Below, one piece after another: positions 33,458 through 55,017 of a stretch of 64,000 nt of DNA. The position numbers were made by a program, and so were the translations under genes. Below the pieces are notes generated by a model. It was not told where the DNA came from. It saw nothing but the letters and a program-made list of their open reading frames with translations, and searched no databases. This DNA is from Frigoriglobus tundricola (GTDB taxonomy: Bacteria; Planctomycetota; Planctomycetia; Gemmatales; Gemmataceae): assembly GCF_013128195.2 (NCBI RefSeq), contig NZ_CP053452.2, positions 1,488,001-1,552,000 on the forward strand. Direction: 5' to 3'. Each line of letters opens with the position of its first letter. Position 1 is the first letter of the stretch.

Positions 33458-33475
33458 TTGGCCCCCGAATTGCTT
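33458..33475 (+). promoter_or_regulatory. Putative sigma-54 promoter of uspA
   Basis: TTGGCCCCCGAATTGCT matches the -24/-12 consensus TTGGCACG-N4-TTGC at 10 of 12 fixed positions, with the obligatory GG and GC ten bases apart. The expected start of transcription is near 33485, about 50 bases before the uspA ATG. Confidence 0.55.
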
Positions 33476-33534
33476 TCTTTGTTCTTCTGTTTGAGGGGTC
33501 ACGCATCCGCACGCCGCTCACCCAGGAGACCGTC

Positions 33535-34014
33535 ATGCTCCCGATCCGCACGATCCTGCACCCGACGGATTTATCCGATTCCGCGCGCCCGGCCTTTGAG
33601 CTGGCCTGCGCGCTGGCGCGGGACTACAAGGCCGAGCTGGTCATTGTTCACGTCGTTCCGCCGACGCGCGTGTTCGCCCCGGACGGGATCGCTGTGCCGT
33701 TCCCGTCGGAACAGCCGTATGAGGCTCTCGTCCGGCTCGCGCGGGTTCACCCCGTCGATCCGCAGGTCAAAGCGGACCACCGGCTCCTTGAGGGCGAACC
33801 GACGGAAGAAATTCTGAAGGCCGCGCGCGACGTGAAGGCGGACGTGATCGTGATGGGGACGCACGGCTCCAGTGGGCTCACGCGGCTCCTCGTGGGCAGC
33901 GTGGCCGAGAGCGTCATGCGAAAGGCGCCGTGCCCGGTGCTGACAGTCCGGGGTCCGTTCCACCTCGCGCCGACTCACGCGACGCCGGCCGAATCGCATG
34001 CGGCGCCGGTGTAA
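33535..34014 (+). CDS. Universal stress protein, UspA family
   Basis: The 159-residue cytoplasmic protein has the single-domain Usp fold: IRTILHPTDLSDSARPAFELA at the N-terminus and the ATP-binding loop VIVMGTHGSSGLTRLLVGSVAESVMRKAPCPVL near residues 106-140 (GxHG...G...GS). This loop predicts an ATP-binding subclass. AGGAG lies seven bases before the chosen ATG. It is preceded by a sigma-54-like promoter and its 3' end overlaps, on the opposite strand, a CsrA-like frame. It heads a cluster of stress-type genes. Confidence 0.92.
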   Translation: MLPIRTILHPTDLSDSARPAFELACALARDYKAELVIVHVVPPTRVFAPDGIAVPFPSEQPYEALVRLARVHPVDPQVKADHRLLEGEPTEEILKAARDVKADVIVMGTHGSSGLTRLLVGSVAESVMRKAPCPVLTVRGPFHLAPTHATPAESHAAPV

Positions 34015-34138
34015 CCGGGACGGTCTCGTGTGCCTGCGCGTGAGGCGCGCGAAGCCCGAGCGTTAAAGCCGGCACGCGAACCACGGTCCCGCCGCCGATC
34101 ACCACCCCTTCGTTGATCTTGCGACTCAGTACCAACAT
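33914..34138 (-). CDS. Shortened CsrA-like protein
   Basis: The first 15 residues, MLVLSRKINEGVVIG, are a near-perfect CsrA N-terminus, the RNA-binding translational regulator that works as a dimer of beta strands. The next part (GGTVVRVPALTLGLRAP) looks like beta2 and beta3 with the connecting RxGxxVR segment shortened by roughly eight residues. The ETVPV that follows resembles the VPVHR region. The remaining 30 residues are unlike CsrA and run about 100 bases antisense into uspA. GGAAGAAG precedes the ATG and a strong sigma-54-like site lies upstream. It may be a diverged regulator or a decaying copy. Confidence 0.65.
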   Translation of the reverse strand: MLVLSRKINEGVVIGGGTVVRVPALTLGLRAPHAQAHETVPVTPAPHAIRPASRESARGGTDPGLSAPGTAPFA

Positions 34139-34177
34139 GAGACTTCTTCCGGCAATGTGAGCAGGCGGCTGGCCGAT

Positions 34178-34194
34178 TCGCAAAGCGCGTACCG
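34178..34194 (-). promoter_or_regulatory. Putative sigma-54 promoter of the csrA-like gene
   Basis: On the minus strand CGGTACGCGCTTTGC has GG and GC exactly ten bases apart, GGTACG at -24 (consensus GGCACG) and a perfect TTGC at -12. The GC lies 42 bases before the ATG of the CsrA-like gene. Confidence 0.55.
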
Positions 34195-34701
34195 GGCGTA
34201 TGGTCCCAAGCTGCTCTCGTTTTCCCATCGTTTCCGCACACGCACCCGCCCCATTTCGCACTCCGGCTGTGTGATCTCACCCGCCCGACAAACGAGTCCT
34301 GTCCCGCAGTGTGCTCCGCTCGCGGAGCTGCGCGTGACGCAACAGAACCGCCGCGTCACATCCGCCGGCGTATCACAACCGCTCACGGATCGAGCGGACC
34401 ACTCTCCGAGCCACCGCCATCGAACGACCGCGACCGGTACGACGCGGAAGCACATTCGTTACGTGAATTGTTCTGTTCACTGCCGGTCGTGTTCAACCTG
34501 AGCCCCTCGCCTCTCGGCACTGCTCCCGTCGCCGTTCGCACGATTTGTTCCTCCGTCCAGCAAGTTCGTTCCACACCAATCTGACCCAGCGGTGTGCGGG
34601 CACGACGCACGCCCGCGCGGTTGAGTCACAGATGGGGAGGCCCGTGCGGTCACGCGGAGTCGATTTCCGCTGATAACGCCCCTGTGCGGCTCTTTCGGCA
34701 A
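34195..34701. other. Intergenic region upstream of the GNAT-acyl-CoA synthetase gene
   Basis: About 500 bases between two divergent sigma-54-like sites. Short open frames have no recognisable protein pattern. No tRNA, strong hairpin or repeat was seen. It is a plausible place for enhancer sites of a sigma-54 activator, but no site could be identified. Confidence 0.4.
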
Positions 34702-34718
34702 TTGGCATGACCGGTGCG
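34702..34718 (+). promoter_or_regulatory. Putative sigma-54 promoter of the GNAT-acyl-CoA synthetase gene
   Basis: TTGGCATGACCGGTGCG matches TTGGCACG-N4-TTGC at 10 of 12 positions with GG-N10-GC spacing. The GC is 41 bases before the ATG at 34758. Confidence 0.5.
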
Positions 34719-34757
34719 TTAACTCGGTCACATTCACCTCACCGCCGGAGACCACCG

Positions 34758-37495
34758 ATGAACGCGCCCGTGCGCCTGCGCTACGTTGCCACTCCCGTAC
34801 AAGACACGGCCGAGTCGGGGCGCCTCATCCTCCGCGACGGGTCCACCGCTCACGTCCGCCCCGCGGAACCGGACGACCGGGCAGAACTCACGCGCTTCTT
34901 CGCCGCCCTGGCCGCGGAGGCCCCGAGCCAGCGGTTCCGCTCGATCGCCGTGCCCGGTCCGGAACTGATCGCCCGGCTCGCGACACAAGGCGATCCCGGG
35001 ACCGCGCTGACGCTGGTCGTCCTCCGGGTGTCCGCGGGCGACGCGCGGATCGTCGCGGTCGGCTCCTACTTCGCACGCACCGCGCACGCGGCCGAAGTGT
35101 CACTCGCGGTCGCCGCCGCGTTCCGCGGCAAGGGGGTCGGCACGCTGCTCCTGGAGCGCCTGGCGCTCGTGGCGGTGCGGAACGGCTTCGGGCGCTTCCG
35201 GGCGCTCACGGCCGCGGAGAACACCCCGATGCTGGAGCTCCTCCGCGCGTCCGGGTTCGAGGTGCACGAGCGCCCGGACGGGGGCGACATCGAGATCAGC
35301 CTGAACGTGACCGCGTCCGAAGGGAGCGTGGCGCGTCTGGACACCCGCGACCGCGTGGCGACCGTCGCCTCGCTGCTCCCGCTGTTCCGCCCGAACGCGG
35401 TCGCGGTGGTCGGCGCCTCGCGCGACCCGGCCGCGATCGGCGCCCGCGTCCTCGACGCGATCGTGAGCGGCGGGTTCCGCGGTCCCGTCTACCCGGTAAA
35501 CCCGAACGCGACCGAAATCGCCGGGCTCACAGCGTACCGGTCCGTGCGCGAGATCCCGGCGCCGGTCGACCTGGCCGTACTGGCGGTCCCGGCCGCCGCG
35601 GTGCCGCGCGTGGTGGACGACTGTGCCGCGCGGGGGTGCGGGCGGTGACGGTGATTTCGGCCGGGTTCGCCGACGCCGGCCCGGCGGGCGCCGCGGGCCA
35701 GCGCGCGCTCGTCGAGAAGGTGCGGGCCCACGGCATGCGGATGGTCGGCCCGAACTGTTTGGGCGTCCTCAACGCCGATCTGGCCGTGCGGCTCAACGCC
35801 TCGTTCTCGCCGGTGTTCCCGCCGCCGGGCCGGATCGCGATGTCGTCCCAGAGCGGCGCCGTCGGCCTCGCCGCCCTCAGCGCCGCCCGGCGGTACGGGC
35901 TCGGGTTCTCGACGTTCGTGAGCGTCGGGAACAAGGCCGACGTGTCGGGCAACGACCTGCTCCAGTACTGGGAAGAGGATCCGGCGACCGACGTGATCCT
36001 GCTCTACCTCGAGTCGTTCGGGAACCCGCGCCGGTTCGCCCGGGTCGCGCGCCGCGTCGGGCGCCGCAAGCCGGTCGTGGTGCTGCACAGCGGACTGACG
36101 CGGACCGGCGCGCGGGCCGCCGGGTCGCACACCGCGGCGCTCGCGACCAACGCCACCGCCGTCGAAGCTGCTGTTCCGCCAGACCGGCGTGATCCGGGCC
36201 GGCTCGCTGGAAGAAATGTTCGACCTGGCCCTCGCCCTGGAGTGCCAACCGCTCCCGCGCGGCCGCCGGGTGGGCATCGTCACCAACGCCGGCGGGCCGG
36301 GCATCCTGTGCGCGGACGCGTGCGAGGCGGGCGGCCTGACCGTGCCCGCCGGCCGGCCCCCGACCTGCACGCGAAACTGCTGGCCCAGCTCCCCGGGGCG
36401 GCGTCCATCAACAACCCCATCGACCTGATGGCCGGGGCCGGCGCCGACGCGTACCGGACCGCGGTCGAAACGCTGCTGACCTCCGGCGAGGTGGAAGCGG
36501 TGATCGCGATCTTCACGCCGGTCGGCCTGGCCGACGCCGGCGCCGTGGCGCGGGCCGTCACCGACGGGGTCGCCGCGGCCCGGGCCGCGGGCGCGAAGAA
36601 CAGACCCGTACTCGCGTGCGTCCTGGGCGAGGACGGCCGGTCGCACCTGGAAGGAGCGGGCGAGCGCGTCCCGTGCTACCCGTTCCCGGAGATCCCGGCC
36701 CGGGTACTGGGAAAGGCCGCCGAGTACTGCGCGTGGCGGACCCGCCCGCCGGAGCGGTTTCCCGAGTTCGAGAACCTCGACGCGGCGCGGGCCAAACAGG
36801 TCTGTCGCCGGGTCGCGGCGGAGCGCGGCGAGGGCTGGCTCTCGGCCGAAGAGGTGCAGACCGTTCTGGACGCCATCGGCCTGCCCCTGGTGCCCTTCGA
36901 GTTCGCCCGGACGGCCGACGAGGCGGTGGCCGCCGCCGCGCGGCTGCGGTTCCCGGTCGCGGTCAAGCTCGCGTCGCGCCACTTCGTCCACAAGACCGAG
37001 GTCGCCGGGGTGCAGCTCGGGCTGACGAACGCCGACGCCGTCCGCCGCGCCGTGGACGAAATTCGTCACCGCGTCGAGCGGGAGAACCGCCCCGGCGCCC
37101 TGGACGGCGTGACCGTTCACCCGATGGTGTCGGGCGGCGTCGAGGTGCTGATCGGCGTGACGCAGGACCCGCTGTTCGGTCCGCTCGTCGCCGTCGGGCT
37201 GGGCGGGATTCACGTCGAGGTCACGGGCGACGTGTGCTTCCGGGTGGCGCCACTCAGCACGCGGGACGCGGCCGAGATGGTGCGGGGCATCCGGGGCTAC
37301 CGGCTGCTCGAAGGCTACCGCGGACACGCGCCCGCGGACGTCGAGGCGATCGAGGAGGTCCTCTTGCGCGTCTCGCGCCTGGCAGAAGAAGTGCCCGAGA
37401 TCCGGGAGATCGACCTGAACCCGGTGTTCGCGTTCCCGCCGGGACAGGGCTGTCGGGTTGCCGATGCCCGCATCCGGGTTCGACCGGTCAAGTGA
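34758..37495 (+). pseudogene. GNAT - ADP-forming acyl-CoA synthetase fusion with three frameshifts
   Basis: Read across frames this is one long protein of about 910 residues. It has a GNAT acetyltransferase domain (AAFRGKGVGTLLLERL, about residues 115-130). Next come the CoA-binding NDP-forming domain (NAVAVVGASRDPAAIG, VYPVNPN), the ligase-CoA domain with SSQSGAVGLAAL and the phospho-His region GSHTAALA, and a C-terminal ATP-grasp domain (FPVAVKLASRHFVHKTEVAGV, REIDLNPV). Shifts occur near 35634 (one G short in a G run), 36172 (one base extra) and 36350 (one base short). The family acetylates or acylates proteins, or makes acyl-CoA with ATP. The shifts may be errors or true decay. GGAG precedes the start. 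Confidence 0.82.
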
Positions 37496-37885
37496 ACCGG
37501 CCACCGGTCGGGCAGCGGTTGAAGCGCGGGCACGACGGCCCATCTGGTGGAACGTGCGTTCCCCGCTCTGACTGTAGCCGGCCCCATCGGTCGGCCGACC
37601 CGTCGGCAGGCCGACACAATCGGCGGGAGGCCGGTGCTCCGCGCGTCGTGTCGCACCGGCCTCACAGAAGCCGGCTCCAGACCGAAACCAACTGCCTTTG
37701 GGCTCCCCGCGCGGGCGCGGGGAGCCGCGTCCGTGAGCGGTGTGCCGCACGCGTGCCCGGAGGTCACACGCGCGTGTCGCGCCCGCACACCGCGACCGCG
37801 TCCGGCCCGTTCGCGCGCGACCTGCGATCTCGAAAAGCCTAGGATTTCTTGCCGTTTCGCCACATTTTCGGCCGAATGGCGGAAC
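37496..37885. other. Intergenic region with dispersed palindromes
   Basis: About 390 bases after the synthetase gene. Frames here lack coding bias. It contains nested inverted segments built from CCGGCC and the 39-base palindromic repeat at 37627-37665, which could end transcription of the synthetase gene. Confidence 0.5.
37627..37680. repeat. Palindromic repeat, copy 1
   Basis: The core (GAGGCCGGTGCT... to ...CACCGGCCTCAC) matches, in reverse complement, the unit at 39146-39188 with few differences, followed by a CCGGCTCCAG tail (CCGGCTACAG in the other copy). The pair flanks the small-gene cluster at 38.0-38.9 kb in opposite orientation. Confidence 0.7.
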
Positions 37886-37903
37886 CGGTACGGCGCGTGC
37901 TTT
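37886..37903 (+). promoter_or_regulatory. Putative sigma-54 promoter of the GFLG/dksA-type cluster
   Basis: CGGTACGGCGCGTGCTTT has GG-N10-GC spacing, GGTACG at -24 and GTGC at -12 followed by TTT. The -24 box is the same as in the csrA-like promoter. The GC is 104 bases before the ATG at 38004. Confidence 0.4.
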
Positions 37904-38003: not shown

Positions 38004-38237
38004 ATGAACCACGCAGGAACACACACCCCGTCCGAAATGGCGAACCAGCGGCGGGTCGCACGCGGCGCGCTTTTCAGCCTCCTGAGCCTCCTCAGCCTCT
38101 CCAGCTTCGGGGCCGTGTTCACCGGGAACAACGCCTGGTTGGGTTTCCTGGGCTTCCTGGGATTCCTCGGGTTCCTGGGGTTCCTCGGGTTCCGCAACCC
38201 GCCGGTCGAGCGACACGCACCGGGCCACGCGCCGTGA
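38004..38237 (+). CDS. Small membrane protein with tandem GFL repeats
   Basis: The 77-residue product has a basic N-terminal region, a first hydrophobic segment (SLLSLLSLSSFGAVF, about 28-42) and a second made of six tandem Gly-Phe-Leu/Gly-Phe triplets (about residues 48-65), encoded by a 9-base repeat at 38150-38190. A short polar tail follows. Such GFLG repeats occur in micro-membrane proteins of unknown function. GCGGAG precedes the ATG. The nearest downstream gene is the DksA-like protein, 38 bases away, so they are probably cotranscribed. Confidence 0.65.
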   Translation: MNHAGTHTPSEMANQRRVARGALFSLLSLLSLSSFGAVFTGNNAWLGFLGFLGFLGFLGFLGFRNPPVERHAPGHAP

Positions 38238-38275: not shown

Positions 38276-38656
38276 GTGAGTACGACCGCGATCGACCTCT
38301 GGGGCTACCGCCAGCGCCTCTTGACGCTCGCCGAGCGCCTCTCCCACGGGGTCTCCCAATTGACCTCCGAAGCGACCCGGCCGACGGGCGCCGAGGGGAC
38401 CGCGGCGGAAGCCCCGGCCCACGACCCGACGGCGACGAGTACCGCGGCCGACGAAGAAGTCGCGCTCTCCGTGCTGGTCTCGGAGGGGCAGATTCTCGCC
38501 GAGGTGCGCGCCGCCATCGCACGGTTCGAGGCGGGCACGTTCGGCCGGTGCGAGAAGTGCGGTCGGGCCGTCTCTCGGACCCGCCTCGACGCCGTGCCGT
38601 ATGCCCGCCACTGCATCCGCTGTGCGCGGGCGGACGAGAGCAACGGCACCAATTGA
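38276..38656 (+). CDS. DksA/TraR-family zinc-finger protein
   Basis: The 126-residue product has an N-terminal helix (DLWGYRQRLLTLAERL), a variable Ala/Thr-rich stretch, a second helix (ILAEVRAAIARFEAGTFG) and the C4 zinc finger CEKCG...CIRC near residues 98-121, with ARHCIRC as in DksA. DksA-type proteins enter the RNA polymerase secondary channel and adjust transcription under starvation. The acidic coiled-coil tip (DxxDA) is not evident. GGAGG seven bases before supports the GTG start. Confidence 0.88.
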   Translation: MSTTAIDLWGYRQRLLTLAERLSHGVSQLTSEATRPTGAEGTAAEAPAHDPTATSTAADEEVALSVLVSEGQILAEVRAAIARFEAGTFGRCEKCGRAVSRTRLDAVPYARHCIRCARADESNGTN

Positions 38657-38744: not shown

Positions 38745-38945
38745 ATGTACGTACCTGATGGCCTGCAATACTGGGAAATCGTCGCCGCGTCGGGGCTGTG
38801 CGCCCTGGGCTTCTTGTCCGTGGCGACGGTGGTGAGCGCGACGGTCGCCGTCTTCGCGACGCGCGAACCCGCTCCCGTTCGCGCTCCGGCCGCGGCCCCG
38901 GCCGCGCCCGCCAGCGAAGCCCGGCAACCGGCCTACGCGGCGTAA
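38745..38945 (+). CDS. Small single-span membrane protein, 66 aa
   Basis: The product has a polar start (MYVPDGLQYWEIVAASG), one transmembrane helix (about residues 18-38, LGFLSVATVVSATVAVF) and an Ala/Pro-rich tail. A strong GGGAGGAAAA ribosome site is seven to eight bases before the ATG. It follows the dksA-like gene by 88 bases. The family is not recognised; the good ribosome site supports a real gene. Confidence 0.6.
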   Translation: MYVPDGLQYWEIVAASGLCALGFLSVATVVSATVAVFATREPAPVRAPAAAPAAPASEARQPAYAA

Positions 38946-40907: not shown

Positions 40908-42284
40908 TCACCCTAACAGCAGCGGGCGCGGCAGGAGCCGGTTACCGAACCAGCGCAACGTCCGGCTGACGTGATCCACGACCGAGAGCGTCTGGCGGCG
41001 GCACGTCTCGAACACGGACATCAACACGCCCTGCGCTCGCGCGCCCGTGACGGTCCGGTTGCCGCCCCACACCTTCCGATTTACCACCGCCGGGCGGATC
41101 GCCTGCTCGGCCTTCCAGTTCGTCGGCTCGATCCGCGGGTCGAACACGAACGCGAACCACTGCTCGAAGTGGTTCCACAGGTGCCTCGCCAGGGTCGCGT
41201 ACTCCGGCACCGCCCGCGGTCGCGTCACCAACTCCAGCAGGCGGTCGTCGAACTGCCCCCGGTGCGCGTCGAGTTGGTCGTCGGTCCACGTCCCCGGCAC
41301 ATACCCGTTCCGCCAGTGGATCGCCTCGGTGAGCAGCGCAATCACCTGCCGTGGGAACCGCACGGCCCCGCGGGTGGCGCGCTCCAGCAACTCCCGCGCG
41401 CGGCGGAGCACGTGGGCCAGGCACTGCTGGTGGATCGCCGCCTCGAACCGGTCGTACGAGGCGAACCCGTCGTGGCTCAGGATGCCGGACCAGTCCGCCC
41501 CGATCACCCGCTCCAGGACGGCGGCACTGCGTTGGGAGTCGATACCGTAGGCGGTGGCCCGGTCACCGACCCACGCATGGAGCCAGGCGGGATGCCCTCC
41601 GATCCGCCACCCCGTCTCGTCGGCCGCGATCTGCTCGGACGACCGCACCTCGTCGAGGATCAGTTGGTAGTCGGGTTCCAGTCGCGACGCTGTGCGGAGG
41701 TCGATCTGGGCGCTGGCCCCGCGGGTCAGGGTGATGCCGAACAGGGTCCGGAACACCGACGCGACCTTGCCGTGCGACAGGCCCATCTGGGTGTGCAGGA
41801 CCGCGGCCGCGGCCTGGGCGTCAGGGCCGATCTGGCTGGCAGCCGCGCCAAGGGCGTCGGACGTCTGGAGCGGATGCCGGCCCTGGGTCCGCTTCCCGCA
41901 CGACTCGCAGTGACCGATGTGGACGCGGAACTTGCGGAGCAGCGGGGTGCGTGGGATCTCGGTCTGGAACTGCTCCGCCGTGCCGGTCTCGACCAGCCGG
42001 CCCCGGCAGTGCGGACAGGAGTCGGGGAGGTGCGCCTCGTGGCACTCCGCAACCTGATCGTGAGGCGGGGGCGGGCGGCGCCCGTGCTTGCCGTGGGCGT
42101 CGCCCGACTTGCGACCGGGTGTCTTCGGGTCGGGCTTGGGCGGACCCTTGCGGAACGGGGCGGCCTGTCGCTTGCCGGCGCGCACTGCCTCGTCGAGCCG
42201 CCGGGTCAACTCGGCGACCTGGGCTTCGAGTTCGGCGACACGCTGGAGGAGATCCCGACAGCCAGGACACGCGGGTTCGGCCAT
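40908..42284 (-). CDS. IS66-family transposase
   Basis: The 458-residue transposase has a leucine-zipper-like N-terminus (LLQRVAELEAQVAELTRRLDE), a CPHC...C zinc-binding region near residues 92-130, and the DDE residues in AADETGWRIGG, LSHDGFASYDRF and KAEQAIRP. It appears intact. It is the single long-ORF form, without the tnpA and tnpB accessory genes. Confidence 0.95.
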   Translation of the reverse strand: MAEPACPGCRDLLQRVAELEAQVAELTRRLDEAVRAGKRQAAPFRKGPPKPDPKTPGRKSGDAHGKHGRRPPPPHDQVAECHEAHLPDSCPHCRGRLVETGTAEQFQTEIPRTPLLRKFRVHIGHCESCGKRTQGRHPLQTSDALGAAASQIGPDAQAAAAVLHTQMGLSHGKVASVFRTLFGITLTRGASAQIDLRTASRLEPDYQLILDEVRSSEQIAADETGWRIGGHPAWLHAWVGDRATAYGIDSQRSAAVLERVIGADWSGILSHDGFASYDRFEAAIHQQCLAHVLRRARELLERATRGAVRFPRQVIALLTEAIHWRNGYVPGTWTDDQLDAHRGQFDDRLLELVTRPRAVPEYATLARHLWNHFEQWFAFVFDPRIEPTNWKAEQAIRPAVVNRKVWGGNRTVTGARAQGVLMSVFETCRRQTLSVVDHVSRTLRWFGNRLLPRPLLLG

Positions 42285-42341
42285 GACGACATCGTAGTGA
42301 CCGGGGCGTCGAGCAGTCCGAACGACGCGCTAATCAAGTAC

Positions 42342-42881
42342 GCCACAATTCCATGCGTAGTGTTCGGTCAGCCAGACGGTCTGCGAGAGGCCGTCCGTGA
42401 TCCGGTTCAAGGCCGGGTACTTACCGAAAATTGTCATGTTGATGGCGTAACTTGACACGGACCACGTAGCCGGGTCGGAGCCTTCGCCGACGTAGTTGAA
42501 TAGGAACGGATCGGGCGACGACGTGCGGCTGGGATCGAGTGGGGAAACGTACACCTTCACCGGGAGAAGATAATGATTCGCGCCTGAGTCGAGGTCAAAT
42601 TTCCTGTATTTCGCTTCGGCATCTAAGTATAACAAGAGTTCAATTTGTGTCGCTTCACCAAAGGCATCAATGCTGTCTAGTTGGCCGGGGAGGCAGCCCT
42701 CGTGGGCATCGGCCGCGAGGTGGAGCGCCAGACCGATCTGCCGCACATTGTTCTGGCTCTGTGCCACCAGCGCCATCTCCCGCACCTTCTGCACCGCGGG
42801 CAACAATAGAGCCAGCAGAACGGCGACGAGGCCCAACGCTACTAGCAGCTCGAGCACCGTAAACCCCCGCCGCATGATCAC
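42342..42881 (-). pseudogene. DUF1559 prepilin-like protein, 5' fragment split by IS66
   Basis: It begins with a type IV prepilin-like N-terminus (MRRGFTVLELLVALGLVAVL), then VQKVREMALVAQSQNNVRQIGLALH, the hallmark of DUF1559 proteins. These are abundant in planctomycetes and probably form pseudopilins or surface fibres. The frame is cut after NRITDGLSQTVWLTEHYAWNCG by the IS66 insertion; seven IS-encoded bases then give a stop. The rest is at 39658-40019. Confidence 0.88.
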
Positions 42882-43002
42882 ACCCTTGCATCAGCAGGAT
42901 CGCACAACCCAAGACGACCTGACGCGAAAGTACGTCAGATGCGGATAGCGATCAATCCCAACCGATACACGTTCCTCGGGCTGAGCCATTCCATGTTTCA
43001 CG

Positions 43003-44311
43003 CAGGGCAAACGCACTCATTTTGCTGGGAAATCGCGGAAGATCTGTTCGAGGAACCCTGGATTCCATGCGGCATAGAGACGTTTATTCTTGATGCCCAT
43101 CTTGGCGTCGGCCTTCTTCAACATGGCCAGCGCCATCTTCCGGATCAGGGCCATGTTTTCCGGTGCGTGGCCCACGCGGAGTCGATGGGCGTCCTCTCGG
43201 AAGGCGACATCCAGGACCCAATGACACGCGTTCTCAATCGACCAATGCGCCCGCACGCTTTTCTGGAACTCTCGGGCCGACGCCTTCCGCGAGCTGATGT
43301 ACAGGCGCACCTCGTCGCTCGCCTTGCCCCCGACGACGCGACTGCTGACGACCACAACCACCGAACGCAACTGGGGCCACAGGAGACGATCCCGAACCGA
43401 CGTCAGATCCTCGATCACGTAACAGAACCGCATCTCCTGACGCCCGTGGCCCGTGTCGTTTTGGAGGTCCGTATCCAGGTCCGCATAATTGGTCTCCAGC
43501 GCCCGGTCCGCCAGGCGCTGGAGATCCTCGAACAGACGCGGTTGGTTGTCCTTCACCGCCAGCAGGTAGTCCCCCTTCTGGGTGACGATCTGCTGGGCGA
43601 TGTCCTTCTGGCACCCCATCGCGTCAATGCTCACCAGCGCACCTGAAAGGTCCAGCACACGCAGCACTTCGGGGATCGCGGTGATTTCATTGGACTTCTC
43701 ATCGGTCTTGACCTGGGCCAGGGTCAGACCGTGTTCGCACGACCAGGCGCTGACGATGTGTGTGGCCTTGCAACTCCTTCGCCCCTTGCGGGTGCCACGC
43801 ATGGTTTTGCCGTCGATGGGGATCTGCCGGATCTTCCCCTTCAGGGTGTCGCACAGGGATTCCACCCACATCACGAAACAAGACCCGAACTCGCGCGGAT
43901 CGATGGTCGCCAGGATGCGGTTGAGGGTGTCGTGTGACGGAACGCCCTTGGGCAGTTTCAACCCCAGACGCTCTTTCAGCCACGCCTCGTGGGTTTGCGC
44001 AAAGGCCGCCATACTGACGCAGTCGTCGGCACCCGCGAGCGTGGCACACAGGGCGATCAGGACCACGTCCAGAAACATATGCTCGCACTTCTTCTGGACC
44101 CATCAGTCCTGGAGTCCGGCGAAGCAAGCAACCAACGCACGCGGCTTGGAGGACATCGGCACACCCGGGCGGAAAATTCGGACCTTCTCCTACAAGTGGT
44201 ATCTGCGGCATCACCGACTCGACAAGGGAACGATCAAAGCTCATCGCTTCGGCTCGCGTTAGACTGTGTCCAAAACCGCGATTTCACAGTAAATTGAGTA
44301 CGTTTGCCCTG
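43003..44311 (-). mobile_element. ISAs1-family element, 1309 bp
   Basis: The left end CAGGGCAAACGCACTCATTT and right end CAGGGCAAACGTACTCAATT are imperfect inverted repeats that continue to about 36 bases (both reach GAAATCGCGG). A 10-bp duplication ATGTTTCACG flanks them (42993-43002 and 44312-44321), as expected for ISAs1. It contains one transposase gene with a premature stop. Confidence 0.93.
43017..44156 (-). pseudogene. ISAs1-family transposase with premature TGA at codon 18
   Basis: The frame from ATG 44156 reads MSSKPRALVACFAGLQD, then TGA (44103-44105), then WVQKKCEHMFLDVVLIALCA without further interruption to 43017. ISAs1 transposases normally have DPR at this point, so the stop lies in the place of the Pro codon. 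The rest has IPIDGKTMRGT, VSIDAMGCQ and HWSIENACHWVLDVAFREDA, containing the DDE residues. An ATG at 44078 could start a 353-residue protein lacking the N-terminal 26 residues. Activity is doubtful. Confidence 0.88.
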
Positions 44312-44463
44312 ATGTTTCACGCTCGCCAGCCGAAGCCGGGAGGAATAACGACTTACGGCGATTTCCGGTGGCGTCCGGCGCCCATTGCATAGGTGGATTT
44401 CGCGGCTTACAACCCCGCTCGAACGCGGTTTTTTAGCCGTTTTTTTGCTCACGTGCAACGCTA

Positions 44464-45585
44464 CTGACCCGCAGGTTTACAACCCTGTACAATTCACCCA
44501 ATCATCATAACCTGTTACTCCATGAGACCTAAAGGTACTGCGGCTGAGTTGGAAGCCCGTCGTCGCTTGGCCGTGCAGCGGGTGGCGGACGGGTGGTCCC
44601 GTGCCGAGGTGGCCGCGTTCCTCGGCGTCCACCGGGAAACGGTGGCCGAGTGGGTGCGGGCCCACAAGGCCGATGGGGACCCGGCTCTGGCGGCCAAACC
44701 ACACCCGGGCCGCCCCCCGTTCCTGACCCCCGAGCAGGAAAAGCAGGTGCTCGGGTGGCTGGCCGAGGCGCCTACGAAGCACGGGTTCCGGACCGACCTG
44801 TGGACGGCCAAGCGGGTGGCCCAACTGATCCTCCAGAAGTTGGAGGTGAAATTCCACCCGCACTACCTGCGGGAATGGTTGACGAAGCGCAACTACACGC
44901 CCCAGAAGCCGGCCCGGCGGGCCAAGCAGCGGAACCCCGAAGCCATCGCGGGGTGGCTCCAGAAGGACTGGCCGCGGATCAAAAAAAAGTCCGGCGCCAG
45001 AACGCCCACCTCGTCTTGATCGACGAAACCGGTGTGTTCCTCAACCCGCTGGTCCGCCGGTCCTGGGCGGTGCGGGGCCAGACCCCGGTGATCGGCGGGG
45101 ACGGGGGGCACCGGAAGAAGGTGTCGGTCATCGGGGCGCTGAGCATGTCCCCGAAGGCCCGGCGCCTGGGGCTGTACTTCGCCACCCGCCCGGACGGGTT
45201 CTTTACGGCTGACGCCGTGGTTCCGTTCCTCCGCGACCTGTTGACGCACCTGCGGGGGAAGGTGGTGGTCCTGTGGGACGGTGGATCCAACCACCAAGGG
45301 CCGCTGATCCGGGCGTTCCTGCAACGGAACCGGCGCCTCGCCCTGGAGCGGTTGCCCGCGTACGCCCCGGACCTGAACCCAGTCGAGGTGGTCTGGTCGT
45401 GGCTCAAGTACGGGCAACTGGCCAACTATGTGCCCGACGGGATCAAGGAGTTGGATAACGAGATCCTGGACCGCCTCATCGAGTTGAGGTGCGACCCGAA
45501 CCTCCTTCGGAACCTGTGGGACGGGTCGGATTTGCCCTTCCCACATCTGAGGACGGGTTAACAGGGTTGGTTACCTGCGGATCAG
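44464..45585 (+). mobile_element. IS630-family element, copy 1, 1122 bp
   Basis: The ends CTGACCCGCAGGTTTACAAC and CTGATCCGCAGGTAACCAAC are inverted repeats flanked by TA on both sides, with C before and G after. This matches the CTAG target preference and TA duplication of IS630. The predicted proteins are identical to those of copy 2 at 48332-49453, which lies in the opposite orientation. Confidence 0.93.
44522..45561 (+). CDS. IS630-family transposase made by -1 frameshift, copy 1
   Basis: ORF A (44522-45019) encodes the helix-turn-helix part (VADGWSRAEVAAFLGVHRET, GFRTDLWTAKRVAQLI). ORF B continues in the -1 frame and encodes the DDE domain (HLVLIDETGVFLNPL, VVLWDGGSNHQGP, PDLNPVEVVWSWLKYG). 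The frames meet at A AAA AAA AG (44981-44989), a classic -1 slippery run. A fused product of about 346 residues is expected, normal for IS630. Identity with copy 2 argues the shift is programmed, not damage. Confidence 0.93.
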
Positions 45586-45687
45586 TAGCCGAACAATACC
45601 CGACTTCCGACCTCAACACATACTACAGGTGTGAAACCAGGGACGACCCAAGCTCCTGATACATGAACCCGATAATGCGGCTTTGAC

Positions 45688-45745
45688 CCAGGGGTTTGCA
45701 TCCCCGGCTACGGATTCCGGTTATGCGCCCTTCCAGGGCTCAAAT
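45688..45745. repeat. Left arm of a long palindrome hit by IS66
   Basis: This segment (CCAGGGGTTTGCATCCCCGG ... GCGCCCTTCCAGGGCTCAAA) is the inverted counterpart of 47353-47403. It is related to the unit at 31715-31765. Before the IS66 insertion the two arms would have formed one imperfect hairpin with a loop containing CATAAAGG. Confidence 0.8.
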
Positions 45746-45753
45746 CATAAAGG

Positions 45754-47344
45754 GTAGCCGTTCACAGGTGAGACGTCGGCATATCAGCGAATTGATATGC
45801 CGACGCCGTGAGGGAATTCGGATTAGGCCGGGAGCAGTGTCGGTGCCGGCTCGCCATTGCGGTGTGCGCGGATGGCGTCGGTGAGGAATGCCAATACGTT
45901 GCGGTTCTGCCGGCGGCACGAGGCGAGGACCGTCAAGATGCGTTCCACGAATCGGCTCCCGCGTTCGCTGTCGGTCCCGAAGCTGGTTTTGCGCCAGCAC
46001 ACCGCGTGGCGCACCTCGCGCTCGGCCGCGTTGTTGGTCGGTTCCACACCGACGACCCGCGCGAACGTCCACAACGACGCCTCGACGGCCAACAGGTCGC
46101 CGCAGGTGGCGGCGGTCTTGGCGCAGCCGCACGCAGCCCCGGTCCGCAGGTGCTCGCCGATCTGGTGACGCAATTCGGGGACGTAGTTCGATCGGAATGT
46201 GGACCGCGCGAGGGTTCCGTCCCGGACCCGATACCAATGCTCGAACAAGGCGTCCGAACTCGCCAACAGAGCCGCACCGATCGCCGTCCCGGAACCGCCG
46301 CGGTCGATCATCGCCTGGAAATCGCGACGCAGGTGCGCCCAGCACAGCTGGCGCGTGTGCTTGGAAAGGTGCGTGTACACCGGATACCGGTCGGTCGTGT
46401 GGACGGCCGTCGAGCCCGCTCGCAGATCATCGAAGGCGCTTCGGCCCCGGGTCTTTCGGATCAGGAAGGCCACCACGAACGTGGTCACGGCCACCCACAA
46501 CCAGGCCCGCTTGCGGCCTTGGGTCCAGCCGGTCTCGTCCACGTTGGCCGGTTGTCCGCGGGTGTAGATCAGGGCGTCCTCGGCCACCGGCTTCAACGCC
46601 TCCGCGGTTCGGTGCTGGAGCTTGCACACCATCGCCGGGCTCAGGGGCAGGCCGAACAGGTCGGCGAACAATTGGCTCGTGCCGCGCTTGCCCAGGCGGC
46701 ACGAGCCGGTGAGCACCGCGGCCACCGCCTGAGCCCGGGGTCCGTATCCGGTCGCCGCCTCGGCCGGCACCGTCGCCGCGGTCGTCGTGCCGCAGTGCGG
46801 GCACCGGAGCCGGTGGCACCGATACTCGGTGACGTGAGGCGTGATGACGGGGATCTCGTGGACCTGATGAACGGCCGGTTGTGGGTCGTCCCCGGTCAAC
46901 GGGTGCGCACAGTCCCGGCACGTGGACGGCTTAAGTGCCCGGATCTCATCGGGCGGCAGCAGGGTGCGTTCGGCTTTGGGGTGCCCCGGTTGCCCGCCTC
47001 GTCTCTTGCCCGAGGGCGGCTTGGGCGGGGCCGGTTTCACGTGCGGGGCGTCGGACGAAGGGGGCTTGGACGAGTTGGTGGAGTTCTGGTTGAGACGGGC
47101 CTCGAGTTCCGCGACGCGGGTGGTGAGCCCGGTGACCTGGGCGGTGAGTTCGGCAATCGTGGCCTCAAGAATGCGGATATACGCCACGACCTGTGGGGGC
47201 AGGTCGCTCGGGAGTTCCGGCGGTTGAGGGACAGGCGTCATCGCGTCCGTTCAATTACGGAAGACGGGTATGTGAGGCAACCACTCACGGACCTCATGCA
47301 AAAAGCCCTGAAAAACGCAGGGCCAGTCTCCTGTGAACGGTTAC
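45754..47344 (-). mobile_element. IS66-family element, single gene, 1591 bp
   Basis: The ends GTAGCCGTTCACAGG and, on the other strand, GTAACCGTTCACAGG match at 14 of 15 positions. An 8-bp duplication CATAAAGG (45746-45753 and 47345-47352) flanks them. A perfect 13-bp subterminal hairpin (CGTCGGCATATCA, 45774-45805) lies inside the left end, just past the transposase stop. The target was the loop of a long palindrome. Confidence 0.94.
45823..47241 (-). CDS. IS66-family transposase
   Basis: The 472-residue transposase has a coiled-coil N-terminus (ILEATIAELTAQVTGLTTRV), a Pro/Lys-rich linker, the zinc region CRDCAHPL and CPHCGTTT (about residues 105-150), and DDE residues in NVDETGWTQ, TTDRYPVYTHL and NNAAEREVRHAV. 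It is intact and only distantly like the IS66 transposase at 40,908, so it is a separate IS66 subgroup. Confidence 0.95.
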   Translation of the reverse strand: MTPVPQPPELPSDLPPQVVAYIRILEATIAELTAQVTGLTTRVAELEARLNQNSTNSSKPPSSDAPHVKPAPPKPPSGKRRGGQPGHPKAERTLLPPDEIRALKPSTCRDCAHPLTGDDPQPAVHQVHEIPVITPHVTEYRCHRLRCPHCGTTTAATVPAEAATGYGPRAQAVAAVLTGSCRLGKRGTSQLFADLFGLPLSPAMVCKLQHRTAEALKPVAEDALIYTRGQPANVDETGWTQGRKRAWLWVAVTTFVVAFLIRKTRGRSAFDDLRAGSTAVHTTDRYPVYTHLSKHTRQLCWAHLRRDFQAMIDRGGSGTAIGAALLASSDALFEHWYRVRDGTLARSTFRSNYVPELRHQIGEHLRTGAACGCAKTAATCGDLLAVEASLWTFARVVGVEPTNNAAEREVRHAVCWRKTSFGTDSERGSRFVERILTVLASCRRQNRNVLAFLTDAIRAHRNGEPAPTLLPA

Positions 47345-47352
47345 CATAAAGG

Positions 47353-47403
47353 TTTTGAGCCCTGGAAGGGCGCATGTCCTTAGCCAGGAGTGCAACCCCC
47401 TGG
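47353..47403. repeat. Right arm of the long palindrome hit by IS66
   Basis: Reads TTTTGAGCCCTGGAAGGGCGC onward to CCCCCTGG. It is the inverse of the left arm at 45688-45745 with a few differences. Between it and 47549 lies about 145 bases of AT-rich spacer with nothing else recognised. Confidence 0.8.
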
Positions 47404-47548
47404 ACCTTTTCGGGACACGCCCAATGGAACCGCATCGGCGCACGAGCCATTCGACAAAAGGCTTAAACCAACACAAGCCGAGCAGCAACGATTACGCAGA
47501 TTAAAAATTTATATATACATTATAACATTATGCCATGGAAACAGCTCA

Positions 47549-48329
47549 CTATTTGCCGAAATCGACATCAACTTTTTCTTTCACAGTCGTTCCGTCGGCG
47601 TAATTTAGGGTAATCTCGACTGTGTGCTTCCCTGTTATGCCAGCCTTTGCCATTACGATATTCCCAGCAAAGTCGCCATTCGAGTTTTTAAAGGCATTAG
47701 CGAGATCGACCTTCACCCCGTCAATCGTGAGTCCCGCGACGAGCATGTTCTTATTGAGCTTTTTACCTTTTCCCGCAAGCGCAAATTCGATGGTTGTGTC
47801 TTTGCTGGTAGCGTTGGTCGACGCTGTGACCTTAATGGGCAGCTTAGCGTCCGCATTCACCAACATAGGATTCGGGCTGCCCACCTCCACAGCAGTTACC
47901 GTCAGGTTTGTCATACTGATCGAGGTCAACGGAAAGCCGGGCAAGACCGGGGCCACGCCAAAGTTTACCCCTTGAAAGTAACCATTGTTGAACTGAATCG
48001 TAGGACTTTCTGTGTAGGTCGTGTTACCCGGCTGGTAGGCGAAGTCTTGACCAGCGATATTCAGATTGAACGCGGTTGGGGTAACCGTCTGGCTTGGCTG
48101 ATCCAAATTGACCTGGTCCCACGGAACGTTGTAAGAGATTGCACCCTCAGTGCCGTCGGCCAGCGTAAAGGTGATCTGGGTATCGGCTGCGTCGTAAGCC
48201 ACAGGCGCCGAGTAGCCCCTGGCAGTTACGATCCCCTGATTCACAGTAACAGTAAGCGCCCCGAAACCAGTAGCCGTGGCGTTCCCGCCCACCAGGACAC
48301 CGTACTGATACGTCGCAGTCGCGCCGGGC
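47549..48329 (-). pseudogene. Surface protein, 3' fragment separated by IS630
   Basis: The frame downstream of the IS630 copy reads PGATATYQYGVLVGGNATAT, then beta-rich repeats (LTVTVNQGIVTARGYSAPV, ITFTLADGTEGAISYNVPW) and an Ig-like end (LTIDGVKVDLANAFKNSNGD, HTVEITLNYADGTTVKEKV). The composition (Thr, Gly, Asn; few charged residues) suits an exported adhesin-like protein. A GTG at 48292 could start a 247-residue fragment, but there is no signal peptide, so it is best seen as the tail of the gene beginning at 49674. Its GC content is lower than the window average. Confidence 0.75.
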
Positions 48330-48331
48330 TA

Positions 48332-49453
48332 CTGATCCGCAGGTAACCAACCCTGTTAACCCGTCCTCAGATGTGGGAAGGGCAAATCCGACCCGTCCCA
48401 CAGGTTCCGAAGGAGGTTCGGGTCGCACCTCAACTCGATGAGGCGGTCCAGGATCTCGTTATCCAACTCCTTGATCCCGTCGGGCACATAGTTGGCCAGT
48501 TGCCCGTACTTGAGCCACGACCAGACCACCTCGACTGGGTTCAGGTCCGGGGCGTACGCGGGCAACCGCTCCAGGGCGAGGCGCCGGTTCCGTTGCAGGA
48601 ACGCCCGGATCAGCGGCCCTTGGTGGTTGGATCCACCGTCCCACAGGACCACCACCTTCCCCCGCAGGTGCGTCAACAGGTCGCGGAGGAACGGAACCAC
48701 GGCGTCAGCCGTAAAGAACCCGTCCGGGCGGGTGGCGAAGTACAGCCCCAGGCGCCGGGCCTTCGGGGACATGCTCAGCGCCCCGATGACCGACACCTTC
48801 TTCCGGTGCCCCCCGTCCCCGCCGATCACCGGGGTCTGGCCCCGCACCGCCCAGGACCGGCGGACCAGCGGGTTGAGGAACACACCGGTTTCGTCGATCA
48901 AGACGAGGTGGGCGTTCTGGCGCCGGACTTTTTTTTGATCCGCGGCCAGTCCTTCTGGAGCCACCCCGCGATGGCTTCGGGGTTCCGCTGCTTGGCCCGC
49001 CGGGCCGGCTTCTGGGGCGTGTAGTTGCGCTTCGTCAACCATTCCCGCAGGTAGTGCGGGTGGAATTTCACCTCCAACTTCTGGAGGATCAGTTGGGCCA
49101 CCCGCTTGGCCGTCCACAGGTCGGTCCGGAACCCGTGCTTCGTAGGCGCCTCGGCCAGCCACCCGAGCACCTGCTTTTCCTGCTCGGGGGTCAGGAACGG
49201 GGGGCGGCCCGGGTGTGGTTTGGCCGCCAGAGCCGGGTCCCCATCGGCCTTGTGGGCCCGCACCCACTCGGCCACCGTTTCCCGGTGGACGCCGAGGAAC
49301 GCGGCCACCTCGGCACGGGACCACCCGTCCGCCACCCGCTGCACGGCCAAGCGACGACGGGCTTCCAACTCAGCCGCAGTACCTTTAGGTCTCATGGAGT
49401 AACAGGTTATGATGATTGGGTGAATTGTACAGGGTTGTAAACCTGCGGGTCAG
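48332..49453 (-). mobile_element. IS630-family element, copy 2, 1122 bp
   Basis: Same length, ends and predicted proteins as copy 1, opposite orientation. Flanked by TA at 48330-48331 and 49454-49455, again within CTAG-type context. It sits inside a surface-protein gene. Confidence 0.93.
48356..49395 (-). CDS. IS630-family transposase made by -1 frameshift, copy 2
   Basis: The two frames (49395-48898 and the DDE frame ending at 48356) give proteins identical to copy 1, joined at the same run of eight A then G (48936-48928 on the minus strand). The helix-turn-helix domain is in the first frame. The catalytic residues are in LIDETGVF, LWDGGSNHQG and PDLNPVEVVW. The conserved frameshift site supports a functional fused transposase. 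Confidence 0.93.
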
Positions 49454-51221: not shown

Positions 51222-52673
51222 TCACTCGACCGCGTGGTCGCTCACGACGTCCGTCGGCGTGCTGGCCGGCGCGAGGGCGAATTTTTCGATGAGCCGATAG
51301 AGCGTGCGGCGGCTGACGCCCAGCGCCTTGGCCGCACGCACCTTGTTCCCGCCGTAGCGCCGCAGCACGTCCATGACGTGACGCCGTTCGACACCGTCCA
51401 GGTCGTCCGGGCCGGTTTCCGGCACCTGCGGGGCGGGCGTCGCGGCCCCCGCGGGGCCCGCGACCGGCTTGCTCGCGAGGAGCAAGTTGTCCGGCAGATC
51501 GTCGGTCGTAATGGTCTGCCCGTCGGCCAGGATCTGCGCGCGCTCCAGGACGTTCGCCAGCTCGCGGATGTTCCCGGGCCAGTCGTAGCCGCACAGTACC
51601 CCCTGCGCCGCCGGGTCCATCCGGAACGGCACCTTCCCGACCGGGCGGGTGTGCAGGAAGTGGGCGATCAGCTCCGGGATGTCCTCGCGCCGGTCCCGCA
51701 GCGCCGGCAGCGTGATCGCGATCACGTTGAGCCGGAAGAACAGGTCCTCCCGGAACCGCCCGGCCTTCACCTCGTCCTCCAGCGGCTTGTTCGTGGCCGC
51801 CACCACCCGCACGTCGGCGTGCTTCTCCTGGGTGCTCCCGACCCGCCGGTAGTGGCCGTCCTCCAGCACCCGGAGCAGCTTCGCTTGCAGGGCCGGGGTC
51901 ATTTCCGCGACCTCGTCCACGAACAGCGTGCCGCCCTCGGCCACCTCGAACAGCCCGGCCTTGGGCCGATCGGCGCCGGTGAACGCGCCCTTCTCGTGGC
52001 CGAACAGTTCGCTCTCCAGCAGGCTCTCCTGGAGCGTCGCGCAGTTGACCGTGACGAGCGGCTGGTCCCGCCGGGCACTGTTCCCGTGAAGCGCGCGGGC
52101 GACCAGTTCCTTTCCGGTCCCGCTCGGGCCGCGGACCAGCACCGTCGCGTCCGTCCCGGCCACTTTCAAGATGAGCGCGACGACCTTTCGCACCGCCGGG
52201 CTGGAGCCCACGATCCGGTACCGGTCCGATTCGTAGGTGAGCCGCCCGAGCGCCTGCCGCAGCCGGGCGTTGTCAACGCGCAGCCGCCGCACCTCCATCG
52301 CCCGGTCGAGGACGGGGAGCACGTGCTGAAGGCGGAACGGTTTGAGGATGTAGTCGAACGCGCCGGCCTTCATCGCCTCGACGGCGGTCTGGATCGTCCC
52401 CTGACCGGTCATGATGACGCCGACCAGGTTCGGGTCGAACTCGAGCGACTGGCGGAGGAGTTGGATGCCGTCGATACCGGGCATCATCAGATCGGACAGG
52501 AGCAGGTCGAACCCGCCGGCCCGGAGCTCGTCCGCCGCGAGCGCGGGATCGGACAGCCCGCGCGTCTCGAACCCCTGCTCGTCGAGGGACTCGCACAAGG
52601 CGCGCATCAGTTCCACTTCGTCGTCCACGACGAGCAGCTTGCCGCGCCGGGCCGGTGTCTTGTCGGTGGCCAT
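51222..52673 (-). CDS. Sigma-54-dependent response regulator, NtrC family
   Basis: The 483-residue activator has a receiver domain (LLVVDDE at residues 13-19, phospho-acceptor Asp61 in SDLMMPG, Lys in YILKPF) and an AAA+ domain with Walker A GPSGTGKE, the sigma-54 contact loop GAFTGA and Walker B LFVDEVAE. The Fis-type helix-turn-helix is near the C-terminus ([22 protein letters not shown]). When phosphorylated it should drive open-complex formation at sigma-54 promoters. The start [10 protein letters not shown] was chosen over a frame 21 residues longer. It follows the histidine kinase gene by 102 bases. Confidence 0.93.
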
Positions 52674-52775
52674 TGTCGCGTGGACCCCAATCGTGATCGT
52701 TGCGGGCGGTGTTACGGGGGGTAACACTTGAACCAAACGCAGAGGGTCTGGCGCCGCCGCGCCACGGCCCCGGTG

Positions 52776-54428: not shown

Positions 54429-54770
54429 GCGTCAACCCTCCTGAGCCCCGGATCGCTCCCCCCCGCATTGAAGTACGCATCAGAAAACCGTCCGACCTAG
54501 CGAACGAATGGCCTGCGAAACAGGAGCGCACTGCACCCGAAGAGCATCGCGACCAAAACGACACCGAACGCGACCATTGTCACGGTTTCCATGACGACCC
54601 CCGCGGTTGAGAGAAGCGATGCGGGTCCTCAACGCAACCCCGATGCCGTTCCAATCAATGACCTAAAATGCTTATTTCGCTGGTTATTCGGCCCCGATTC
54701 GGGGCGCCGAGAGCCCGGCCGTGTGTGGACGTGACACAGCGGTGTGCGGGCGTGTGCGAGGGCGACACAA
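54429..54770. other. Intergenic region between the kinase and the DUF6496-like gene
   Basis: About 340 bases. It contains a possible 31-codon membrane peptide gene (54497-54592, minus strand) and GC-rich leader sequence. The divergent promoters for the kinase and for the gene at 54838 must lie here; only the latter can be suggested. Confidence 0.5.
54497..54592 (-). CDS. Possible 31-aa single-span membrane peptide
   Basis: Reads METVTMVAFGVVLVAMLFGC, then SALLFRRPFVR and a TAG stop: one hydrophobic helix of about 20 residues followed by a basic tail, like a KdpF-type micro-protein in layout. GGGGG lies about six bases before the ATG. It is 68 bases upstream of the histidine kinase on the same strand and could be cotranscribed. 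No homology can be claimed. Confidence 0.4.
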   Translation of the reverse strand: METVTMVAFGVVLVAMLFGCSALLFRRPFVR

Positions 54771-54787
54771 CGGCACGCCTCGTGCTC
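54770..54787 (+). promoter_or_regulatory. Putative sigma-54 promoter of the DUF6496-like gene
   Basis: CGGCACGCCTCGTGCTC has GG-N10-GC spacing, a perfect GGCACG at -24 and GTGC at -12. The GC (54784-54785) is 53 bases before the ATG at 54838. Confidence 0.5.
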
Positions 54788-54837: not shown

Positions 54838-55017
54838 ATGAAACGCAAGTACGGCCCGAAGGCTCAAGAGAAGGTCGAGGAGACGATGCACGAGTTCAAG
54901 CGGGGCAAGCTGAAAAGCGGGTCCGGCCGGACCGTGACGAACAAGAAACAGGCGATCGCCATCGGCCTGTCCGAAGCCCGGAAAGCCGGCGCAAAGGTGC
55001 CACCCAAGAAGTCCTGA
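54838..55017 (+). CDS. Small basic DUF6496-like protein, 59 aa
   Basis: The product begins MKRKYGPKAQEKVEETMHEF, then KRGKLKSGSGRTVTNKKQAI, and ends AIGLSEARKAGAKVPPKKS. This pattern (K-x-Y-G-x-KAQ, AxAIGLSEARKAG) matches short DUF6496-type proteins found across many soil bacteria, often with stress genes. It is very basic and probably binds nucleic acid or acts as a plasmid- or stress-linked small protein; the function is unknown. AAGGAG lies eight bases before the ATG, and a sigma-54-like site is upstream. Confidence 0.8.
   Translation: MKRKYGPKAQEKVEETMHEFKRGKLKSGSGRTVTNKKQAIAIGLSEARKAGAKVPPKKS

Follow-up and report, generated by a model that had tools for sequence, protein, structure and literature searches.

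Putative sigma-54 promoters of stress genes in Frigoriglobus tundricola and their likely cognate activator

Which regulator, if any, stands behind a group of promoter-like sites ahead of stress genes in the planctomycete Frigoriglobus tundricola? The sites lie in a stretch of 64,000 nucleotides (positions 1,488,001 to 1,552,000 of contig NZ_CP053452.2, assembly GCF_013128195.2), hereafter the window, numbered from its first letter. An original prediction had placed sigma-54 promoters there before a universal stress protein gene (usp), a csrA-like gene, a gene for a GNAT-acyl-CoA synthetase (ACS) and a GFLG/DksA-type gene pair, joined them in one stress module, and noted a sigma-54 activator encoded 13 kb away. 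Our analysis gives good reason to believe that these sites act as sigma-54 promoters and form, with the csrA-like gene as the doubtful member, a single regulon run by the nearby kinase–activator pair, resembling the NmpRSTU system of Myxococcus xanthus and probably responding to low oxygen. The sites are as follows.

33458..33473, plus strand: sigma-54 −24/−12 element before usp, TTGGCCCCCGAATTGC, 10/12.
34195-34180, minus strand: putative sigma-54 element before the csrA-like gene, CCGGTACGCGCTTTGC, 9/12.
34702..34717, plus strand: sigma-54 element before the ACS gene, TTGGCATGACCGGTGC, 10/12.
37886..37901, plus strand: sigma-54 element before the GFLG/DksA genes, CCGGTACGGCGCGTGC, 8/12.

The score of a site is its number of matches at the 12 fixed positions of TTGGCACG-N4-TTGC, the consensus for sigma-54 promoters that the original prediction had also used, with GG and GC held 10 bases apart. 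The predicted scores of 10, 9, 10 and 8 were confirmed at their positions, as was the GGTACG −24 box common to two of the sites; the spacing was also correct, with 61, 41, 40 and 102 nt from site end to start codon for usp, csrA-like, ACS and GFLG, respectively. The genome has one Sigma54_DBD match (E 7.3e-60), corresponding to rpoN.

The placement of the sites within the window is unusual. Promoter positions were defined strand-specifically as intergenic positions 30–130 nt before a called gene (3,070 of 128,000). Both 10/12 sites of the window fall in such positions on the right strand (P 0.0006), as do 4 of the 18 sites scoring at least 9/12 (0.43 expected, P 0.0008), in a test that was devised after the sites were known and that uses our own gene calls. 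The four placed sites are those of usp and ACS, one at 54770 before a DUF6496 gene, and one at 3864 on the minus strand. Those of the csrA-like and GFLG genes stand outside this count, since the csrA-like gene was not called by the gene caller and the GFLG site scores 8.

The sites are also conserved, clearly so before usp and DksA. For each of usp, DksA, ACS and CsrA, we scored the 250 nt upstream of the best-matching homologues in 61 Gemmataceae genomes and compared sites of at least 9/12 with those on the antisense strand, within genes and in shuffled sequence. A sense site was found in 22/30 usp loci (antisense 3, in-gene 3, shuffles 1.03) and in 13/30 DksA loci (antisense 2, in-gene 1, shuffles 1.04); one locus in each set is the window's own, and three homologue loci at contig ends (L132, L154 and L175; L and G numbers are our labels for loci and genomes) contained no 9/12 site. 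Recurrence of the boxes in other Gemmataceae, a check that the original prediction had proposed, is seen before these usp and DksA homologues. For ACS, conservation is unclear across the family and clear within the genus: all four full-length same-genus homologues carry a 10-11/12 site at −48 to −85 (TTGGCATGCCCGGTGC, CTGGCACGACGGGTGC, TTGGCATGGCGGGTGC and TTGGCACTCGCGTTGC, compare TTGGCATGACCGGTGC in the window). These sites score 10, 10, 10 and 11 of 12 in G070, G074, G071 and G068, the ACS starts of the last two being placed by homology, and the ACS of G032 has a 10/12 site, TTGGCATGACGGCTGC. The usp element TTGGCCCCCGAATTGC recurs unchanged, in 16/16 letters, before a HAQK-usp gene pair of the same-genus genome G065, with close variants before the HAQK genes of G062, G063 and G064 and ahead of a HAQK-like gene at a different place in the F. 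tundricola genome.

A second element, further upstream, links two of the promoters to the activator's own operon. The word TCCGCACA occurred in 13 of 51 stretches upstream of such sites (4 of the stretches being from the window), compared with 0.3 expected. A palindromic motif search of 44 stretches without the window returned a 17-bp dyad, TGTGCSG-N3-CSGCACA, with a log-likelihood of 89, where 10 shuffled sets reached no more than 27. Before training, the overlapping or near-identical stretches L071, L056 and L023 were dropped along with the four window stretches, and the same-genus stretches L052, L053, L126, L127, L128 and L122 were kept; the k-mer count that preceded the choice of motif seeds covered the window's four stretches too, but an unrelated seed (NGGTCA...) converged on the same motif. 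In a scan of the window (about 64,000 positions), the dyad's ranks 1-4 fell at 54722, 54753, 37773 and 34593, all of them at promoters of the proposed regulon. The dyads and the elements around them, unstranded where no strand is given, are listed here.

34593..34609: enhancer dyad, TGTGCGGGCACGACGCA, score 14.6, rank 4; 109 nt upstream of the ACS site.
34614..34630: weak possible second copy, score 4.8, rank 92; 21 bp from the 34593 dyad.
37752..37770: weak overlapping possible copies at 37752 and 37754, scores 6.9 and 7.0, ranks 43 and 40.
37773..37789: enhancer dyad, CGTGTCGCGCCCGCACA, score 14.8, rank 3; 113 nt upstream of the GFLG site.
54634..54649, minus strand: putative sigma-54 element of the kinase–activator operon, ACGGCATCGGGGTTGC, 8/12.
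54722..54738: enhancer dyad, TGTGTGGACGTGACACA, score 18.2, rank 1.
54753..54769: enhancer dyad, TGTGCGAGGGCGACACA, score 18.1, rank 2.
54770..54785, plus strand: possible divergent sigma-54 element before the DUF6496 gene, 9/12.
54838-55017, plus strand: DUF6496 gene, PF20106 (E 4.9e-23).

The two strongest dyads, which lie 89 and 120 nt from the ACGGCATCGGGGTTGC element, stand between the kinase–activator operon and the divergent DUF6496 gene. Around 47 sites in other genomes, mostly the training stretches themselves, a dyad scoring at least 12 was found within 400 nt upstream of 21/47 and downstream of 0/47. Same-genus loci outside the training set agree: each of the 6 DksA genes called there is preceded by a 9-10/12 site that has a dyad at −91 to −121, including GGTACG-variant sites with a dyad at −91 to −120 in G074, G065 and G071; site and dyad occur together before the ACS genes of G070 and G074; and 26/30 dyad matches are intergenic. 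From the F. tundricola genome we sampled 35 of 76 loose dyad matches (50 places were listed; the sample comprises the 15 that came with loci and, from the remainder, the 20 with the highest scores). A 9/12 site lay 40-220 nt downstream of 5/15 intergenic and 0/20 in-gene dyads, or of 7/15 and 3/20 at a threshold of 8/12. Two of the five intergenic pairs are in the window and the others are at L234, L238 and L247.

The operon headed by the two strongest dyads, and the stretch that separates it from the stress genes, are composed as follows.

51222..52736, minus strand: NtrC-type sigma-54 activator with a receiver domain, Sigma54_activat with GAFTGA, and a Fis helix-turn-helix (PF00158 E 1.5e-68, PF00072, PF02954).
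52776..54428, minus strand: PAS-PAS histidine kinase, the first PAS FixL/DosP-like (domain search).
54497..54592, minus strand: small hydrophobic open reading frame between the kinase and the putative promoter, read from the sequence.
40908..49395: transposase-rich stretch separating the promoters from the activator, with IS66-type transposases twice and DDE_Tnp_1 once.

Since the dyad is shared, orthologues of the activator stand beside the target genes in relatives, and the gap is rich in transposase genes, this activator is very probably the cognate regulator of the promoters. Its orthologues form a distinct group, the 30 best rows (29 genomes) having 56-82 % identity and the next rows 47 % or less; for 10/30 of them the listing has a usp, ACS or DksA match no more than 20 kb away, a count that comes without a computed expectation. 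Orthologues or remnants stand beside targets in G032, G049, G051, G062, G063, G064, G065, G071 and G074. G032 encodes the activator (73 % identity) and the kinase (62 %) next to its HAQK and usp genes; genes for DksA, a molybdopterin oxidoreductase and ACS follow at a greater distance. In Gemmata sp. IIL30 the kinase–activator pair, DksA, usp and HAQK share one locus (L269), which also has sites of 9-11/12 and two dyads with scores of 18-19, and G043 has a 40-aa open reading frame at the position that matches 54497..54592. The core of the original prediction, a single stress module with an activator encoded 13 kb away, is thus supported by site conservation, the dyad and the neighbourhoods. 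It is subject to two reservations: the csrA-like gene is its weak member, and usp has no good dyad in the window.

In the mechanism that we propose, the kinase at 52776-54428, by means of its FixL-like and probably haem-bearing PAS domain, would sense low oxygen or another diatomic gas and phosphorylate the activator at 51222-52736. The activator would then oligomerise on the dyad about 110 nt upstream and, with energy from ATP, bring sigma-54 polymerase into the open state at the promoters of ACS-GNAT and GFLG/DksA; its own operon and, probably, usp would be regulated in the same way. The genes behind the four sites are these.

33535..34014, plus strand: universal stress protein (Usp), PF00582 (E 4.7e-34).
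33914..34138, minus strand: csrA-like gene, probably degenerate, matching PF02599 residues 1-22 only (22.8 bits, cut-off 27).
34758..37495, plus strand: GNAT-acyl-CoA synthetase (ADP-forming type), frame interrupted; Acetyltransf_1, CoA_binding_2, Succ_CoA_lig and ATP-grasp_5.
38004..38237, plus strand: small LGF-repeat protein, 77 aa, first gene after the GFLG/DksA promoter; no Pfam match.
38276..38656, plus strand: DksA/TraR zinc-finger protein, PF01258 (E 9.4e-11).
38745..38945, plus strand: small 66-aa protein after DksA; no Pfam match.

The predicted outputs among them (Usp, a DksA-like protein, protein acylation or acyl-CoA synthetase) resemble a hypoxia or energy-stress set. In relatives, genes for CBS, Hsp20 and PEP/pyruvate dikinase proteins also lie behind such sites, with NiFe hydrogenase genes nearby, and the 66-aa protein follows DksA in G043 and G064 as well (49 and 51 % identity).

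The signal is the part of this reading most exposed to an alternative. Oxygen, or another diatomic gas, is suggested by the kinases that accompany the activator. Among solved structures, the first PAS domain of the window's kinase best matches FixL (1d06, E 1.6e-18) and DosP haem domains; in G021, G038, G039 and G028 the activator's neighbouring kinase has FixL-type sequence; and protoglobin kinases lie beside it or in its cluster in G024, G037, G023, G071 and G044, the protoglobin domains of the first three having E values of 7.8e-35 to 5.9e-39. The gene order in G071 is protoglobin kinase, double receiver, receiver-kinase, activator; G044 has the same first three genes and then a CBS gene before the activator. 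A His at the position of the FixL haem ligand is kept in all six close kinases (those of the window, G043, G032 and G052, and two of G051); in Bradyrhizobium FixL this residue and the distal Arg are H200 and R220. Of 80 distant or named activator loci, one protoglobin locus (L279) and one FixL-type locus (L340) passed our filters. A less probable alternative accepts the regulon and its control by this pair but has the kinase respond to redox state, another ligand or energy status. PAS domains are versatile and the haem residues no more than suggestive, since such His and Arg positions also occur in PAS domains that need no haem; G032 has Gln where FixL has the distal Arg; G040 and G007 have kinases without the FixL-like PAS; and no full kinase was resolved in the loci of several activators. 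All of these points weigh against oxygen. Against the alternative stand the repeated pairing of orthologous activators with protoglobin or FixL-type PAS kinases and a protoglobin gene of G004 (L117 12667-13239) that stands alone near usp and ACS and is preceded by a 10/12 site. Low oxygen, or another diatomic gas, remains the signal that we regard as probable.

Membership of the csrA-like gene, which would bring CsrA-type control into the regulon, appears unlikely. Its 9/12 site is at a fitting distance, a csrA gene of G007 in a usp/DksA neighbourhood has a 9/12 site 35 nt upstream, and COG1551 (CsrA) and COG2204 regulators are mentioned among sigma-54-linked groups in the part of a planctomycete study on which we draw (Carrera-Reyna et al. 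2025, PMC12316311). However, the gene is reduced to 22 matching residues and is probably degenerate, the nearest good dyad is 398 nt away, and the best-scoring CsrA homologues, which served as a negative comparison, had sites in 2/30 loci (antisense 0, in-gene 0, shuffles 0.86), which is no excess. The site itself stands as originally predicted, while the gene's place in the module is weak.

A further alternative is that the promoters are genuine but driven by another activator of this genome, the kinase–activator pair being a bystander. We scored at least 25 relatives of the activator in this genome, of 173 first-look candidates, and 45/61 genomes have at least 25. Besides this number, two results favour such a view: the usp promoter of the window has no good dyad (best score 3.2, rank 179), and 20/30 orthologues have no listed usp, ACS or DksA match within 20 kb, many of the contigs being short. 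Other results count against our reading in general. In the genus loci a dyad stands within 400 nt of the HAQK-usp promoter in 2/4 cases; the ACS genes of G071 and G068 have the site and no dyad; and a dyad abuts the −24 box on the DUF6496 side, an odd arrangement. The loose pattern matches the F. tundricola genome 76 times, compared with 66 for a reversed control. A strict combined pattern (GTGC-N7-GCAC, 85-115 nt, GGCAY-N6-TGC; 95 family genomes) gave no excess family-wide (65 matches, 62 in the reversed control) or in the F. tundricola genome (1 and 3), and 30 matches against 16 within the genus. Binding of the activator to the dyad and firing of the promoters are themselves deduced from sequence. 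On the other side, ACS, DksA and the operon of the activator itself all carry the dyad, and the activator or its remnants adjoin the targets in nine relatives (G032 to G074, above), which makes a different activator improbable and leaves the neighbouring pair as the likely regulator.

The number of sites taken alone is not above chance, in keeping with counts in the window at or below Markov expectation: at 66.6 % GC we observed 2 sites of 10/12 and 16 of 9/12, where an order-1 Markov model with GG and GC fixed expects 3.5 and 21.7. Pattern scans of the F. tundricola genome for the site likewise showed no excess, TTGGCNCNNNNNTTGC giving 18 matches (55 in the reversed control) and TGGCAYNNNNNTTGC 27 (42). 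Before ACS genes family-wide, sense and antisense sites were equal (3/9 each; in-gene 1, shuffles 0.36), and in the window ACS homology runs through frames 3, 2 and, over a short piece, 3, so that this target may be a decaying pseudogene or reflect assembly errors. Despite these counts, it is very improbable that the sites are meaningless GG-N10-GC matches in a 67 % GC genome, given their strand-specific conservation and placement, the top four ranks at these promoters of a dyad learned elsewhere, and the agreement of genus loci outside the training set.

The system is best read as working like NmpRSTU (PMC11841059). In M. xanthus, transcription runs from nmpU through nmpT to nmpS, and nmpR belongs to a separate operon; the system uses sigma-54, its first kinase needs haem, and its promoter mxan_4236 is induced by hypoxia (PMC11841059). 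Reported targets are Usp and CBS genes, cbb3, hemN, hemerythrin and the system's own genes, and the enhancer is GCGCA-N5-TGCGC (PMC11841059). Shared with the present system, on that account, are an NtrC-type activator (receiver, AAA+, Fis helix-turn-helix) acting with sigma-54, the dyad geometry GYGC-N7-GCRC (GCGC-N7-GCGC there, GTGC-N7-GCAC here), and Usp, CBS and own genes among the targets; G071 and G044 even have the protoglobin kinase, double receiver and receiver-kinase in nmpU-T-S order, with the activator downstream. By gene content, however, the window is no NmpRSTU locus, since a single kinase of the simpler PAS-PAS type stands where NmpRSTU has U, T and S. The half-sites also differ (TGTGCSG-N3-CSGCACA instead of GCGCA-N5-TGCGC), nmpR is in a separate operon in M. 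xanthus, and the targets here include DksA-like and GNAT-acyl-CoA synthetase genes.

Two other systems bear comparison. Rhizobial FixL resembles, in its PAS sequence, the kinases of the window (first PAS) and of G021, G038, G039 and G028; its partner FixJ has a different architecture from NtrC-type sigma-54 activators, and the output here is of the latter type. The DosR dormancy regulon of Mycobacterium contains a similar kind of gene set (Usp, Hsp20 and CBS), and DosR is not a sigma-54 activator. A link between Usp and hypoxia is also stated in PMC11841059. A sigma-54 promoter before usp has precedent, since enrichment of such promoters before COG0589 (Usp) genes has been described for Planctomycetia (Carrera-Reyna et al. 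2025, PMC12316311). The part of that study on which we draw names no enhancer, no activator for these genes and no oxygen link, and the word Gemmata is absent from its main text. Within the open-access papers searched, what is new is the likely cognate activator with its enhancer, the inclusion of ACS-GNAT and DksA-like genes in the regulon, and the connection with haem-sensor kinases.

More broadly, Gemmataceae could possess a sigma-54 counterpart of the hypoxia and dormancy regulons of other phyla, a proposal that we hold to be evenly poised. One conserved activator and one conserved enhancer would be served by interchangeable haem sensors, either a protoglobin relay or a FixL-like PAS kinase, and would control Usp, DksA-like, acyl-CoA synthetase/acetyltransferase, CBS, Hsp20 and perhaps hydrogenase genes; in F. 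tundricola, mobile elements would have moved the activator 13 kb from its targets and left the circuit intact. To our knowledge, few planctomycete relatives of this activator have known binding sites. A guess about four promoter-like sites has thus become a circuit in which activator, enhancer, promoters and likely signal are named together and which can be tested in culturable strains. If true, it would tie gas sensing to stress survival in Planctomycetota, with sensors swapped around a constant sigma-54 output.

Some minor observations concern these loci. In the transposase-rich stretch an identical helix-turn-helix gene, which we take to be IS630-like, occurs twice, and one transposase-like gene unit is present at 44522-45561 and again at 48356-49395, in opposite orientation and about 2.8 kb apart. 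Uninterrupted ACS versions of 910-917 aa exist in relatives. In G016 (L122 4736-13622) an acyl-CoA synthetase gene lies behind an 11/12 site, with genes for NiFe hydrogenase and Hsp20 and a fragment of usp close by. Small, probably secreted proteins of a 'HAQKVLE' family are encoded near usp at L118 10112-10546, L009 and L269 12902-13351, the L118 member having no Pfam match.

Finally, rpoN itself drew attention. In Gemmata sp. IIL30 an rpoN-like gene, recognised by eye, lies about 6 kb from the kinase–activator operon (L269 1032-2618). In F. tundricola the TTGGCNCNNNNNTTGC matches include sites before rpoN and some other genes, and a perfect 12/12 element, TTGGCACGCGGGTTGC, is situated in the end of the gene preceding rpoN (L116 9343; C1:7667343), about 260 nt ahead of the called rpoN start, through which rpoN may control itself.

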